Below are positions 2,322-22,454 of a stretch of 23,942 nt of DNA, one piece after another; position 1 is the stretch's first letter; every line of letters starts with the position of its first letter. The stretch is from a virus. Under the pieces are notes generated by a model. That model was not told the origin of the DNA. It did no database searches and worked only from the letters and a program-made list of their open reading frames with translations. The DNA lies in IMG/VR virus record IMGVR_UViG_3300027734_000313, positions 1-23,942 of that record. One strand, written 5' to 3'. The position numbers and the translations under genes were made by a program.

Positions 2322-3362
2322 ATGGCTGAAGAATTAGAAACTAGGCGAGATGCTCTTGAAGCTGCTTTAGACAAATTAGAAACGGCAGAAATACCGGCAG
2401 AAGAACCGATTGAAGAACCGATTCAAGATACTACTGAAGAGGTTCAAGAGGAAAAAGAAGAACCGGCAGAAAATCGTGATGAAAAAGGTAGATTTGTAAG
2501 TAAAGAAGAAGAAACTGCTGAAGAACCTGTGGCAGAAATTAAGCGACCTACTACATGGAAAAAAGAATATGTAGAAATTTGGAATAAGATGGAAAAAGGA
2601 GAACAACTTAATCGTGAAGATTTTGTTAAATTTGCTGATTATGCCAACCAAAGAGAAGCTGAATACAAAAAAGGTGTATCTACATACAAAGCAGAGGCTG
2701 ATAATGCTAGACAGTTGACAGAAGCTCTTGGGCCATTTATGCCTGAGTTACAAGCACAGAATATTCATCCTGTAGCCTGGATTAATAACTTAGGTAGAGC
2801 GCACATGGTTCTATCTAAAGCACCTTATCAAGAAAGAGTGCAAATGTTCCATAGACTAGCACAAGATTATGGGATACAATTGAATCAAGACGGCATTTCC
2901 ATGCCAGAACAAGTTGATCCTTATCAACAACAGTTAATGCAACAATTACAAGCTACACAGCAACAAGTGCAACAACTGTCACAGATAAGGGAGCAAGAAG
3001 AAAATGCTCGATTAAACCAAGAAATCAATCGAGTAAGTAGTGACAAAGAGCGATTTCCGCACTTTGAAATGGTCAGGGAAGATATGGCTCAATTACTTGA
3101 GCGTGGTTTAGCCCAAAACCTTGAATCGGCTTATGCCAAAGCTGTGCGTATGAACGATGAAGCTTACAAGTTGGAGACGGATAGACTCCTGAAATCAACA
3201 AGTACTCAAGCATCTAAGGCACAACAAGTAGCAAAAGCTAAAGCAACTGCTGTTAGTCCACGATCATCTACTCCTAGTGGTCAAGTGTCTAAAGGAGATG
3301 CAAAGGATAGACGTTCATTGTTAGCCGAACAAATAGGGCAAGCAATGGATGGTAGGGTTTAA
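2322..3362 (+). CDS. Capsid scaffolding protein (probable)
   Basis: 346 residues starting at ATG 2322 behind an AAGGAG. The first ~75 residues are extremely acidic (Glu-Glu-Pro repeats) and contain NRDEKGRFVSKEE, common in phage scaffolds. A helical central region (80-200) is followed by a Gln-rich coiled coil (about 205-235) and a basic Ala/Lys/Ser-rich tail (about 290-325), as expected for a scaffold that binds coat protein through a basic C-terminus. The gene lies directly upstream of the major capsid gene, the canonical scaffold position. Sequence of this kind is poorly conserved, so the call rests on composition plus position. It would act inside the procapsid and leave before DNA packaging. 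Confidence 0.75.
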   Translation: MAEELETRRDALEAALDKLETAEIPAEEPIEEPIQDTTEEVQEEKEEPAENRDEKGRFVSKEEETAEEPVAEIKRPTTWKKEYVEIWNKMEKGEQLNREDFVKFADYANQREAEYKKGVSTYKAEADNARQLTEALGPFMPELQAQNIHPVAWINNLGRAHMVLSKAPYQERVQMFHRLAQDYGIQLNQDGISMPEQVDPYQQQLMQQLQATQQQVQQLSQIREQEENARLNQEINRVSSDKERFPHFEMVREDMAQLLERGLAQNLESAYAKAVRMNDEAYKLETDRLLKSTSTQASKAQQVAKAKATAVSPRSSTPSGQVSKGDAKDRRSLLAEQIGQAMDGRV

Positions 3363-3388
3363 AACTTAACTTTTATAAAGGAAATATC

Positions 3389-4619
3389 ATGGCATTTGCA
3401 AATAGCGCAATTACCGATATTATCGCTACAACCATTCAAAGCCGTAGCGGAGTATTGGCAGATAACTTAACACAAAACAACGCAATCCTACAAAGATTGA
3501 ACTCTAAAGGTAACGTTCGCCCATTTTCAGGCGGAAATGTCATACTCGAAGAGATTATGTACAATGATCCATTAAATTTTGGTGGCCTTCTACATTAAAA
3601 CGTAGATTGAATAATTTTCTCTGATTGACTTGGACCTCCAGTAGTGGACAACAGGGCGCAAGCGAAAGCAGCGTGAACGACTAAGTGAGAAAACACCTGA
3701 AAAGGTGGTGCGATAGTCTGAACTAGGATATAACTAAAGTTAGCAGAAGTCCTAGAGAGTAATCCGAAGAGGTTACTCCGCTACGAAAGTAGTCAGTAAG
3801 CGAAAGCTGAAGTAACAGAATGCAACAAATAACGCTAACAGCTATAGTGGCTATGAGGTGCTTAACATCACCCCTGATAGCCCAATTAGTGCTGCACAGT
3901 TCTCTATTACTCAGTACGCAGATAGCGTAACAATGAGTGGTTTAGAAATGTTACAAAACAGTTCTAAAGAAGCAATCATCGACTTGTTAGATGGTCGTAT
4001 GCAAGTTTCTGAAGCACGTTTGTTAAACCGTATCTCTGGTGACATTTTCTTAGATGGTACTGGTAACGGTGGTAAAAATATTACTGGTTTAGCTGCTGCT
4101 GTATCAACCAGCCCGTCTTCAGGAACGTATGGTGGTATTAATCGTGCAAACTGGACATTCTGGCAGAACCAAGCAACTACAGGTGCTACTTCTTCCTCAC
4201 TTATCCAAGCTGCTATGACTACTGCTGCTATCAAGTCTGTTCGTGGCAATGACAAGGTAGACTTAATCGTAGCTGGTAACACTTTGTATCAATACTATGT
4301 TGCTTCTTTACAGACTATTCAGCGTATTGCTGGTGTTGAAGAAGGCGCAGCAGGTTTTGCATCACTCAAGTTCTACGGTGGTGGTATGTCTGCTGATGTG
4401 GTACTCGGAGGCGGTTATGGCGCACAAGAAACTGCAACTTATATGTATCTGTTAAATACAGATTACATCTTCTTGCGCCCACACAAAGAGCGTAATTTCG
4501 TTCCTATTGGTGGCGAAAGACAGTCTATTAACCAAGATGCTATCGTCAAATTGTATGGCTGGGCCGGCAACCTCACTTGCTCGAACTCATTCCTACAAGG
4601 TGTCTTAACAGGCTCTTAA
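3389..4619 (+). CDS. Major capsid protein, interrupted by a group I intron
   Basis: Two exons: 3389-3572 and 3823-4619. Read unspliced, the first frame ends after 69 residues at TAA 3596 with a nonsense tail (LNFGGLLH). The downstream frame starts without an ATG or ribosome site but is clearly capsid. Joining U3572 to C3823 gives TCA (Ser) and a continuous 326-residue protein: ...EEIMYNDP-S-TNNANSYSGYEVLNI... The N-terminus (SAITDIIATTIQSRSG..LADN), the GGNVILEEIMY segment and VTMSGLEMLQNSSKEAIIDL are characteristic of a podovirus major capsid family. AAGGA lies 8 nt before ATG. The next gene follows after 26 nt. Without splicing no complete coat protein could be made, so the intron should be active. 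Confidence 0.88.
3573..3822 (+). ncRNA. Self-splicing group I intron, 250 nt, no ORF
   Basis: Boundaries come from pairing rules. P1: exon CCAU (3569-3572) pairs with GUGG (3582-3585), with the diagnostic U3572-G3582 wobble at the 5' site. P10: exon-2 CAA (3823-3825) pairs with UUG (3579-3581). The intron ends in G3822. P7: GACUA (3679-3683) with UAGUC (3714-3718), in R/S-like contexts GUGAACGACUAAGUG and GCGAUAGUCUGAAC. P8: CACCU-GAAA-AGGUG (3694-3707). P9: CUAGGA (3723-3728) with UCCUAG (3750-3755). Three further 3' hairpins follow, two with GAAA loops (3781-3792, 3801-3810). A length of 250 = 1 mod 3 is exactly what restores the capsid frame. P2-P6 were not fully resolved and the subgroup is not assigned. 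Confidence 0.88.
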
Positions 4620-4645: not shown

Positions 4646-4942
4646 ATGGCTTTTACCGTACTCCCTATCGCTGGCGTAGATTTGTCTAATGTAACTAACA
4701 CAAATCTTAACTCTGCTGGCACAGCAATTGCAACATTTGGCCCTCTAGGTGCTGAAACTTTTGGTAGCGATGGCTTCCGTTATGTTTTTGCCCAAGCAGG
4801 TGTAGCTATTGCAGCTTCAGCAGCTACTTGTATTATTAACGCTTCTACATTCCAAGTAACTTTGGGTGCTACAGGCACATACTTATCAGGTGCTTCAATG
4901 GCATCTGGTGATTATGGCTGGTTCTCAAAAGCTAGTGTTTAA
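4646..4942 (+). CDS. Small structural protein after capsid (98 aa)
   Basis: Starts at ATG 4646 after TAAGGAAAAAATATC. The protein is Ala/Ser/Thr/Gly-rich with no charged clusters and reads like a compact beta domain (FRYVFAQAGVAIAASAATCII, FQVTLGATGTYLSG). Genes of this size and composition directly after a major capsid gene are often head decoration or cement proteins, but I see no motif that proves it. A strong terminator 26 nt downstream ends the capsid transcript, so this gene probably shares the high expression of the capsid gene. Confidence 0.6.
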   Translation: MAFTVLPIAGVDLSNVTNTNLNSAGTAIATFGPLGAETFGSDGFRYVFAQAGVAIAASAATCIINASTFQVTLGATGTYLSGASMASGDYGWFSKASV

Positions 4943-18482: not shown

Positions 18483-18538
18483 GGTCAGGGATAGAACGTG
18501 ATTGGGGAAAAAGGGAATAAACCCCTCTACCCCTGACC
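18483..18538 (-). terminator. Long stable hairpin spanning the nuclease-gene stop codon
   Basis: Arms 18483-18495 and 18526-18538. In the leftward transcript they form 13 consecutive pairs including one G-U; in the other strand's RNA that pair would be A-C, so the structure belongs to the leftward transcript. An inner GGGG/CCCC adds four pairs. The stop codon (18527-18529) lies in the arm. No U-run follows, so it may be an RNA-stabilising, Rho-related or processing element rather than an intrinsic terminator. Confidence 0.55.
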
Positions 18539-19270
18539 GAGATTATTCTTTATTCTGAAATACGTTAATAAACATTGAAACATTTTCCAACCTCTTTGTA
18601 AATCTTCTTGATCTATTTCGTGTATTTGGGTTTCTGTTTCGCTAACAAACACAATGGCACAACGAGCTGTCGGTATTTTTAAACCATGTGCATATGCAAT
18701 TAGTTGTAAAATATGTTCATCGTAAACGGCAGCGTTTTCAAGGGATTCCTTTGTCTTAAAATCGCACACAATGCCCTCATCGCTATGCAAGTCGCATTTA
18801 CCAGCATATCCAAGTTCGTGAGCAAAAGACTTCTCACAATGCCAAAACTGATCCCCAAAGTGATTTCTAAGGGCTTCCTCTGTTCTGCGTGTATAGTGTG
18901 GGTACTCAGGCAAATATACTTGGCTAAAGTAAGCTTCAAGTACATTGTGCATATCTGTGCCACGCTTCATTGCATCTTTGCCAGTTGCTCGCGAATCTTC
19001 GGTCACTCTCTTTAACCAGTCGGCTTCTGGTTCGTTTTCTAATCGAGGTAAGGTAAGACTAGCCAACAATACTTGTTCTTGTTTCCAACGATCAAGACCA
19101 GGCTTTGCAAGCACATTAATAATTGTAGTTACACTTGGCAGCAATCCCTCTTTCTTTGCATCCCTAAGAGTTGTATTGCGTACATTACCATTTTTTGCTA
19201 TACGAGTATAACTAGGCTGGCCATCGGCTGTATACCAATGGGCTGAATTGCTTTCTGCTGTAATTATCAT
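18527..19270 (-). CDS. PD-(D/E)XK nuclease, probable recombination exonuclease
   Basis: 247 residues, with AAAGGGAAAAT before ATG 19270. Motif order fits the RecB/Cas4/lambda-exonuclease superfamily: KRGTDMHNVLEAYF (102-115, upstream His), Glu146 in HCEKSF, LGYAGKCDL (Asp160), and the core GIVCDFKTKE (Asp170-x-Lys172), then QLIAYAHGL (189-197) as the Q-motif. The N-terminus (LPSVTTIINVLAKPGLDRWK) is common in phage members. With the ERF annealing protein and SSB in the same leftward group it would form a two-component end-resection/annealing system. DNA binding and metal-dependent cleavage are inferred from motifs. A long hairpin covers its stop codon. Confidence 0.8.
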   Translation of the reverse strand: MIITAESNSAHWYTADGQPSYTRIAKNGNVRNTTLRDAKKEGLLPSVTTIINVLAKPGLDRWKQEQVLLASLTLPRLENEPEADWLKRVTEDSRATGKDAMKRGTDMHNVLEAYFSQVYLPEYPHYTRRTEEALRNHFGDQFWHCEKSFAHELGYAGKCDLHSDEGIVCDFKTKESLENAAVYDEHILQLIAYAHGLKIPTARCAIVFVSETETQIHEIDQEDLQRGWKMFQCLLTYFRIKNNLGQG

Positions 19271-20184: not shown

Positions 20185-20592
20185 TCAGAACGGTAAATCT
20201 TCTGGAATATCACCTAAAGACTGAGAAGGCTTGGTACTAATCTCTCCATGATCAATAGGTGGGCTTTTACTACCCAACAACTGCAATACATCACACTTCA
20301 CTTCAGTACTACTCTTTTCCACACCGTTAGCATCTTTCCACTTTCTTGTGGAAATTTTGCCCTCAACATACACCTGGCTACCTTTTTTTACATATTGGCT
20401 TGCAATTTCTGACAACTTACCAAAGCATCCAATTCTGTGCCATTCGGTATTCTCACGATATTCACCAGACTTGTCTTTGTATTTTTCAGACGTTGCTAAA
20501 CTAAAATTAGTAACTCCTGATCCATCGGCAAACGCACGAGTTTCAGGATCTTTTCCTACAAATCCAACCAAAATAATTTTATTTACTGACAT
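20185..20592 (-). CDS. ssb: Single-stranded DNA-binding protein
   Basis: 135 residues. The start MSVNKIILVGFVGKDPETRA is the canonical bacterial-type SSB OB-fold opening; EWHRIGCFGKLSEIASQYVK followed by GSQVYVEGKISTRKW continues it. The acidic C-terminal tip (DIPEDLPF) is the protein-interaction tail used to recruit partners. AGGAG lies about 6 nt before ATG 20592, within the end of the ERF gene (14-nt overlap), so the two are co-translated. It would coat ssDNA in replication and annealing and probably binds the ERF protein and host enzymes. Confidence 0.95.
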   Translation of the reverse strand: MSVNKIILVGFVGKDPETRAFADGSGVTNFSLATSEKYKDKSGEYRENTEWHRIGCFGKLSEIASQYVKKGSQVYVEGKISTRKWKDANGVEKSSTEVKCDVLQLLGSKSPPIDHGEISTKPSQSLGDIPEDLPF

Positions 20593-21169
20593 TTTCTGCT
20601 CCTAATTTCTTTTCCAACATGGATATGGCTTGAATAGCCTCAGTTCTTGATAAAAGCGTGATAGACGGCTTTTTAAAGTACGCTAGTAACTTAGCCTCAT
20701 CTGCTTCTGCTTGTTCAATTAAAGCGTTTATAGACGTTATCTGCTGAGATGTTGCACTTTCGGCAACGCTTGTTGCTTTATTAGATGCAGAGTTTCCATC
20801 ATCGTCAGCTTGGACTACACCAACAACGGCAGCCAAAGCATATCTACGCATATACGTTAATGCTGATCCTGCACCTTGAGCATCTGGTTTAGACACAGGA
20901 ACACTCATTTCTTGTGACATCCATTCACCAGACTTATGTGTGATTATGGTGTTTAGTGCCATATTGCCGTCTAAGTATTCACCAGGAAACTGCATAATGG
21001 CTAAACCGTTCGTAGACAACAATTCTCTGCAAGCATCCCATACAGATTCAAGGTCGGCATAGTTAGATTTAAAAAATGGATTTTTAGAATCTTTTTTGGC
21101 AAATGTTAATTGGCCTTGCACAATCGCTAGGGCTGTGGCTAATTCTTTTATAGATTCAGATGAGTTCAT
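20579..21169 (-). CDS. erf: ERF-family single-strand annealing protein
   Basis: 196 residues from ATG 21169 (MNSSESIKELATALAIVQGQ); the frame extends upstream to 21220, but that part is antiparallel to good coding sequence of the previous gene, and the TAATATG junction supports 21169. Family marks: PFFKSNYADLESVWDACREL (31-50), GLAIMQFP, and the signature GSALTYMRRYALAAVVGV (101-118) with ADDDG. The C-terminus is variable and helical. ERF proteins anneal complementary ssDNA for genome circularisation and recombination. It is encoded directly upstream of SSB and in the same leftward cluster as the PD-(D/E)XK nuclease. Confidence 0.92.
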   Translation of the reverse strand: MNSSESIKELATALAIVQGQLTFAKKDSKNPFFKSNYADLESVWDACRELLSTNGLAIMQFPGEYLDGNMALNTIITHKSGEWMSQEMSVPVSKPDAQGAGSALTYMRRYALAAVVGVVQADDDGNSASNKATSVAESATSQQITSINALIEQAEADEAKLLAYFKKPSITLLSRTEAIQAISMLEKKLGAENVSK

Positions 21170-21170
21170 A

Positions 21171-21359
21171 TTAATGGCCCATATACTGAACAAATGCCGA
21201 ACGTGGCATACCGCACTCAAACCAAATGACTTGCTTATCTTCTTCAGTCATTGTTCCATGTTCCATACGTTCTAATGCTTCTAATAAACGCATTTGACGT
21301 TCTTCTTGCATGAGTCGCATTTCTTGCATTTCATCATCAATATCATTTGTATCAATCAT
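21171..21359 (-). CDS. Small early protein of unknown function (62 aa)
   Basis: First gene of the leftward early transcript, with AAGGGAG before ATG 21359. 62 residues: an acidic, Met/Glu-rich coiled helix (DIDDEMQEMRLMQEERQMRL) followed by a short tail, WFECGMPRSAFVQYMGH. The stop is 1 nt from the ERF start (TAATATG). No family recognised. Being promoter-proximal, it is among the earliest products and may be a host-takeover or regulatory peptide. Confidence 0.6.
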   Translation of the reverse strand: MIDTNDIDDEMQEMRLMQEERQMRLLEALERMEHGTMTEEDKQVIWFECGMPRSAFVQYMGH

Positions 21360-21932: not shown

Positions 21933-22454
21933 ATGAGATTAATAGATTATTTAAGTGCCAAGTATGGTGTACATACTCCTACTACAATTTTATATAATGA
22001 AGGTAGAGTATTTGGGATTAAATTTCCTTTAGAGCAAGGCTGGTTAAAAAAATATGGTGAGTTAGAAATAACTCCTGATATAGAAATTAAATTAAAACAT
22101 TATCTTCAAAAAATGATTGATACAAATCATCCAAGATCAGATAGTGCAATGGTAGGCATTAAAGTATTAAACGATGCTTATTTAGTTTTAAAGACTAAAC
22201 CTAAAGTAAATTCAGATGAATTTTTACAGTCAAAATCTTGGAAAAGATTAAGGATAGAAGCGTTCAACAAATATGGTAATTTTTGTAATTGTTGTGGAGC
22301 TAAACCATCTGACGGTGTAAGATTAAATGTTGATCATATTAAGCCAAGAAGATTGTTTCCTGAATTAGCTTTAAACATTGATAATTTACAAATTCTATGT
22401 GCAGATTGTAATAGTGGTAAAGGCAACTGGAATATGAGTAATTTTAATGGATAA
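21933..22454 (+). CDS. Free-standing HNH endonuclease
   Basis: 173 residues. The C-terminal HNH domain is complete: SWKRLRIEAFNKYGNFCNCC (C118 and C121), LNVDHIKPRR (Asp134-His135, His as general base), NIDNLQILCADCN (Asn151, C156, C159, Asn160) and GKGN (Lys163). The two CxxC pairs form the structural zinc site. The N-terminal ~90 residues (MRLIDYLSAKYGV... FGIKFPLEQGWLKKYG) probably form a DNA-specificity domain; no RuvC half is present, so it is not an IscB/Cas9-type protein. Orphan HNH genes in phages are usually homing endonucleases, but packaging or anti-competitor roles occur. The start is preceded by a structured stretch and leader ORF. It overlaps the next gene by 8 nt. Confidence 0.88.
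   Translation: MRLIDYLSAKYGVHTPTTILYNEGRVFGIKFPLEQGWLKKYGELEITPDIEIKLKHYLQKMIDTNHPRSDSAMVGIKVLNDAYLVLKTKPKVNSDEFLQSKSWKRLRIEAFNKYGNFCNCCGAKPSDGVRLNVDHIKPRRLFPELALNIDNLQILCADCNSGKGNWNMSNFNG

Follow-up and report, generated by a model that had tools for sequence, protein, structure and literature searches.

Most accounts of phage introns place them in genes of DNA metabolism, and most describe them as carriers of homing endonucleases. For the group I introns of T4 td and nrdB and of the Bastillevirinae, the host genes serve DNA metabolism or encode terminase, and an endonuclease is present in the majority (PMC11878797). Introns in capsid genes have also been described, in lactococcal phage Tuc2009 (as cited in PMC3706429), in mycobacteriophage LittleE (PMC3706429) and in crAss-like phages (PMC7886860), and short phage introns without an open reading frame (ORF) are known from BAKA (PMC3706429) and from the Jug phages (PMC12363816).

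We analyzed a 23,942-nt stretch of DNA from an aquatic phage (IMG/VR record IMGVR_UViG_3300027734_000313, positions 1-23,942; hereafter the window), in which the major capsid gene is interrupted at positions 3573-3822. We consider it very probable that this segment, compact and without an endonuclease, is a self-splicing group I intron of the capsid gene, that it belongs to a lineage centered on capsid genes and that it has been moved by DNA recombination. It shares its place in a virion structural gene with the LittleE capsid intron and the BAKA and Optimus tail introns, which are probably group I; splicing of those introns was observed in infected cells by RT-PCR (PMC3706429), whereas that of the window intron is predicted from its sequence. 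The 265-bp BAKA intron also lacks an endonuclease, in contrast to the LittleE capsid intron, which, compared by description, is about 820 bp long and has an endonuclease ORF; that study describes no lineage occupying many sites, unlike the one reported here (PMC3706429). The major capsid genes of crAss-like phages resemble those of the window lineage in that one gene can hold several group I introns; those introns belong to large gut phages and were identified mainly through their endonuclease domains, whereas the mapped introns of the window lineage are ORF-less (PMC7886860). The T4 and Bastillevirinae introns share group I membership with the window intron and differ from it in their host genes and, mostly, in their endonucleases (PMC11878797). 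The introns of the Jug huge phages, about 206 nt long, resemble those of the window lineage: they are numerous, short, of group I and located in phage genes, and 37 of 76 are backed by metatranscriptome reads; compared by description, they differ in occurring in other phages and in terL, nrdD and polymerase genes (PMC12363816). We found no description of the window intron lineage in the literature searched, which lay largely outside subscription journals and bioRxiv. The lineage itself, its bias toward capsid genes, its occupation of multiple sites within one gene, the failure of the Rfam group I model RF00028 to see it and its footprint of repeated transfer without an enzyme of its own appear to be unreported.

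The major capsid protein gene, intron included, occupies positions 3389-4619 on the plus strand. Exon 1 (3389-3572, 184 nt) ends in GAT CCA T and shows no gap when aligned with intron-less relatives. The intron (3573-3822, 250 nt) interrupts codon 62, and exon 2 (3823-4619, 797 nt) begins CA ACA AAT in the resumed capsid frame. The preliminary description had stated that the frame breaks after MYNDP and resumes without a start codon, and these boundaries proved exact. Read from 3389, the capsid frame meets stop codons inside 3573-3822, including TAA at 3596-3598. Joining 3572 to 3823, which gives the junction GATCCAT|CAACAAAT, yields a single ORF of 326 aa with its stop at 4619, and residues 3-325 of the spliced protein match the phrog_9953 major head protein (E 2.6e-90). 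It is removal of the insert that restores the frame, and not its length, as the same description had it, since 250 is not a multiple of three. In alignments of the spliced protein with the best 80 capsid relatives from IMG/VR, most lacked the insert, were colinear at the junction and had matching residues across it, which clearly is not the picture of homologous capsids that translate the 250 nt. Because stop codons lie inside the insert and most relatives read through the position without it, we conclude that 3573-3822 is intervening and not capsid-coding sequence. The insert was correctly described as ORF-less: no ORF of 60 aa or more, and thus no homing endonuclease ORF of that size, was found on either of its strands.

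Two trivial or non-RNA explanations were weighed at this point. An assembly error was rejected because the same insert occurs in several different contigs. A frame that resumes without a start codon could also reflect a ribosome that bypasses the 250 nt in a translational hop, or an insert removed at the protein level as an intein. Introns at the same site (site B, the window's own) in relatives are 250, 252 and 254 nt long, however, so in-frame translation of all of them is impossible, and the in-frame stops and the covarying group I core described below leave both ideas scarcely conceivable.

All elements of a group I intron could be placed on the plus strand of the insert. P1 (3569-3585) pairs the exon sequence CCAU at 3569-3572 with the guide GUGG at 3582-3585 and contains a wobble between U3572 and G3582 at the 5' splice site. 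Compensatory change in site-B relatives supports this helix across the exon and guide, which read CCA/UGG in three site-B introns and CCG/CGG in three others. For P10, sequence complementarity places the guide half UUG at 3579-3581, opposite the exon-2 sequence CAA at 3823-3825 (3 bp); this helix is weak or absent in some relatives of the window intron. The P2 hairpin (3589-3593 with 3602-3606) is paired in six of six site-B introns, with two compensatory positions. P3 joins 3615-3621 to 3687-3693. P4 (3629-3632 with 3652-3655) closes P5 (3637-3640 with 3645-3648), and both were placed from the two alignments, A1 and A2, introduced below. P6 (3656-3659 with 3671-3674) is extended by P6a (3662-3663 with 3668-3669) and a GAAA cap, with CG/GC swaps throughout. 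P7 pairs 3679-3683 with 3714-3718 and adds A3677-U3719 across a bulged C3678; the pair G3679-C3718, beside the bulged position (C or A in relatives), is the predicted guanosine-binding site. P8 (3694-3697 with 3704-3707) shows two-sided changes in four of four pairs. P9 (3723-3728 with 3750-3755) is followed by 3' hairpins at 3757-3778, 3780-3793 and 3799-3808, a region supported to 3808 by compensatory pairs between site-B and site-D introns. The intron ends in a terminal guanosine (omega G) at 3822, the 3' splice site, and a G stands at all mapped 3' boundaries at sites A, B, C and D. P1 with its U-G pair, the 3-bp P10, P7, P8, P9 and the terminal G, all of which had been drawn in the preliminary description, were thus recovered. 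The P7 strands of the window lineage presumably resemble those of T4 td.

Relatives were gathered from viral contigs by two sequence patterns, and 57 distinct cores were aligned (A1). With no structure supplied, RNAalifold recovered P3, P4, P5, P6, P6a and P8 from A1, arranged as in a group I intron; 17 of the 25 pairs showed two-sided changes. Once P7 was added as a pseudoknot, 98.8% of cells in A1 could pair; none of 500 shuffles reached any of the measures, and in controls with slid partners pairing fell to 39-45%. Because the selection patterns fixed P7, this helix was invariant in A1, and we therefore used a second set (A2), composed mainly of loci from the other pattern, whose span leaves out P7, and fitted to R1. 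R1 is a covariance model built from the 57 cores; since no P7 pairs are part of it, the A2 counts for P7 are independent of it. In A2 the pair 3677-3719, which flanks the guanosine site, took all four Watson-Crick forms (A-U, G-C, C-G and U-A), with C or A as the bulged base, and 3683-3714, at the inner end of P7, occurred as A-U, G-C and U-A. P3 showed two-sided changes in five of seven pairs in A1 and in all seven in A2. P4 and the middle of P7 are nearly invariant, and covariation is silent there. A conserved P3-P9 core with the P3/P7 pseudoknot is therefore present in A1 and A2, with P9 taken from the comparison of site-B and site-D introns. R1, whose training included the window copy, scored that copy at 118.8 bits (E 1.6e-30), and the next-best place in the window reached 10.6 bits. 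The single-sequence folding energy of the insert was unremarkable (z = -1.77) and uninformative. Taken together, the covariation, beyond all shuffles, and the R1 score uphold the proposal of a structured group I intron in the major capsid gene, and we regard this assignment, made by sequence comparison, as confirmed.

The same data bear on whether the insert might be decayed and dead for splicing, with the capsid built from two half-proteins and exon 2 translated from an internal GTG at 3858. The ORFs 3389-3598 and 3858-4619 do appear separately in the open reading frame listing, and a relative, MW202674, was deposited with two coat-protein coding sequences. Nevertheless, the compensatory change in P1, the core and the terminal G have been kept across relatives, and a split subunit would lack the stretch from codon 62 to the internal start, which is conserved in relatives. 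We consider such a split capsid extremely unlikely.

In the mechanism that we propose for the self-splicing intron, the intron within the capsid transcript would fold into its P3-P9 core, and the end of exon 1 would pair with the guide to form P1 with its U.G pair. A guanosine cofactor would free exon 1, which would then be joined, with P10, to exon 2 after the terminal G, restoring the capsid mRNA. The structure was obtained by comparison, and we infer the splicing reaction from family membership, structure and constraint. As the preliminary description supposed, splicing may be efficient late in infection.

The preliminary description had proposed a search with RF00028, and here the outcome went against it: the model gave no match in the window, either at the gathering score or at E 10, and none in the sampled relatives. 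At the gathering score RF00028 likewise fails to detect the introns of T4 td and nrdB (T4 136-145 kb; L257), although the same search does find another intron, at locus L235. Its silence is not decisive, since these T4 introns are known, and we conclude that the missing match is a limit of the model and not of group I membership. R1, in turn, had no match in the T4 td/nrdB region. It also follows from the T4 result that genome surveys with RF00028 undercount phage introns. RF00028 missed every lineage member tested, so environmental capsid genes may be annotated as broken or split. MW202674, a deposited phage, is such a case (L081 2691-4206): two coding sequences are labeled 'P22 coat protein' with a 39-aa hypothetical protein between them, and R1 identified the middle of this split gene as a member of the window intron lineage. 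In a capsid region of L235, on the minus strand, an RF00028-type intron (55.4 bits) has an R1 intron on each side (2383-2493, 3150-3383 and 4657-4768 for the three), and two intron types apparently share one gene.

In the contigs fetched by pattern, R1 had at least 217 matches at E 0.001 or better. At least 171 strong matches, copies from the capsid relatives included, were sorted by host gene, with clusters built by single linkage and, in most cases, labeled after a single representative. Among the matches listed with a nameable gene, in a collection whose seed motif came from a capsid intron, 128 of 152 (96 of 119 after removal of redundancy) were in major capsid genes. Among the matches listed, the capsid hosts span at least six PHROG head families, the N4-gp56 capsid model matches 23 of the 28 testable 5' exons of the second-largest cluster, and the other hosts include genes for tape measure, portal and ribonucleotide reductase. 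R1 also matched a lineage member that splits the ribonucleotide reductase gene of Roseobacter phage CRP-118 (L258 2528-2639), the one cultured relative among the matches listed. Eight bacterial or MAG contigs were also matched by R1. We conclude that, within this sample, the lineage mostly occupies phage major capsid genes. The preliminary description had called an intron in a coat gene unusual, which suits phage introns as usually described and needs qualification here, because capsid introns were already known and the capsid gene is the usual home within this lineage. The mapped introns are about 230-280 nt long and ORF-less. Several positions can be used in one gene: the P22-type coat gene has introns at six or seven positions, with three in a single gene in each of two contigs, and in the capsid family to which the window gene belongs, introns take up at least five positions (A, B, D and two more). 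A further intron, at site C, was found in two contigs, L019 and L078, and has no R1 match. It is a second intron in the same capsid gene (L078 5423-5658 and 5715-5995; L019 2199-2478; YSG|Y) and obeys the group I boundary rules, with a U before it and a G at its end. A contig of Paenibacillus barcinonensis carries two lineage members (L255 1206-1321 and 3047-3167), perhaps within a prophage.

Movement of the site-B intron was examined on a tree built from exon 2 only, on which its distribution implies a minimum of five gains or losses; across 250 aa, no difference separates one of the intron-bearing proteins from an intron-less one. Spliced coding DNA was then compared with that of the nearest intron-less relative. 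Identity was about 0.96 far from site B versus about 0.77 in the 30 nt that adjoin it on each side, and it recovered by about -90 and by +90 to +150. The differences are thus concentrated in a patch from about -60 to +90 nt around the junction. All six site-B representatives showed the dip, with a mean drop of 0.154 versus 0.016 for intron-less sequences compared with their best intron-less partner. None of 20,000 random sets reached the site-B mean drop, a comparison in which the near and far pairs share ancestry and are not independent. Conversely, intron-bearing pairs that are distant overall had identities of 0.94 and 0.93 just downstream of the site versus about 0.82 elsewhere. Dips were also seen at sites A and C. 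At site D, L177 hardly differs from the intron-less L024 over several hundred preceding bases, and identity falls to 0.87 and 0.80 in the last 60 nt before the junction; the site-D comparison left out four contigs with capsids too diverged (L198, L169, L087 and L136). Co-conversion of flanking exon is a described signature of phage intron homing (PMC2988022). Our reading is that intron and flanking exon were probably copied together by DNA recombination, either as a gain or as a loss by replacement; on its own, the footprint falls short of proving a targeted break.

The dip could instead be ordinary mosaic recombination in a variable capsid region, unrelated to intron movement, and some intron-less pairs do dip locally (the lowest identity near the site is 0.783). 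Identity near the site was 0.85 or less in 18 of 18 intron/intron-less pairs, however, versus 1% of 100 close intron-less pairs, and the dip shifts with the position of the intron, as L177 and L024 show at site D. We therefore judge this explanation unlikely. Spread through RNA, in which the intron reverse-splices into a transcript that is then reverse-transcribed, would fit the presence of introns at several sites in highly expressed genes and could explain how new sites are founded. Against it, the exon DNA next to the intron is foreign in intron-bearing alleles at sites A, B, C and D, so that this route is disfavored for the spread at site B, where we hold it very unlikely, but it could account for how the intron first reached each site. 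Under DNA recombination, the site-B intron would have moved between phage lineages with about 60-90 nt of flanking exon carried along, most likely through homing started in trans by an endonuclease outside the intron or through plain recombination during co-infection.

Trans or collaborative homing has precedents among ORF-less or defunct phage introns, which have no working enzyme (PMC2988022, PMC3984707). In the MobE/nrdB case, the intron lacks a working endonuclease, as the window intron does, and endonuclease-mediated transfer leaves flanking-exon co-conversion, a footprint that the window lineage also shows; there a free-standing endonuclease moves the intron, whereas for the window none was found and the host gene is a capsid gene (PMC2988022, PMC3984707). 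Among related records, no HNH_3, HNH, GIY-YIG or endonuclease VII family tracks with the presence of the intron, and HNH genes occur both with and without it. The HNH gene of the window (21933-22454) had one weak match in 33 related records and was rejected as a trans endonuclease, because it is not common to the other intron-bearing relatives. The window does encode an exonuclease and an Erf-type annealing protein (18527-19270 and 20579-21220, minus strand), a phage recombination set that would suit short-patch recombination.

A broader reading holds that these are miniature endonuclease-less introns specialized on major capsid genes, across at least six head families and several sites per gene, with DNA homing in trans; we regard it as quite possible, though short of probable. 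An endonuclease-less intron with repeated transfer and a clean conversion footprint, in a lineage found mainly in the highly expressed late capsid gene, makes testable how such introns persist and move, and what draws introns to capsid genes. Endonuclease-bearing versions of the lineage seem to exist. By eye, HNH-like ORFs lie beside or inside some of its introns in capsid genes (L152, L187 and L229).
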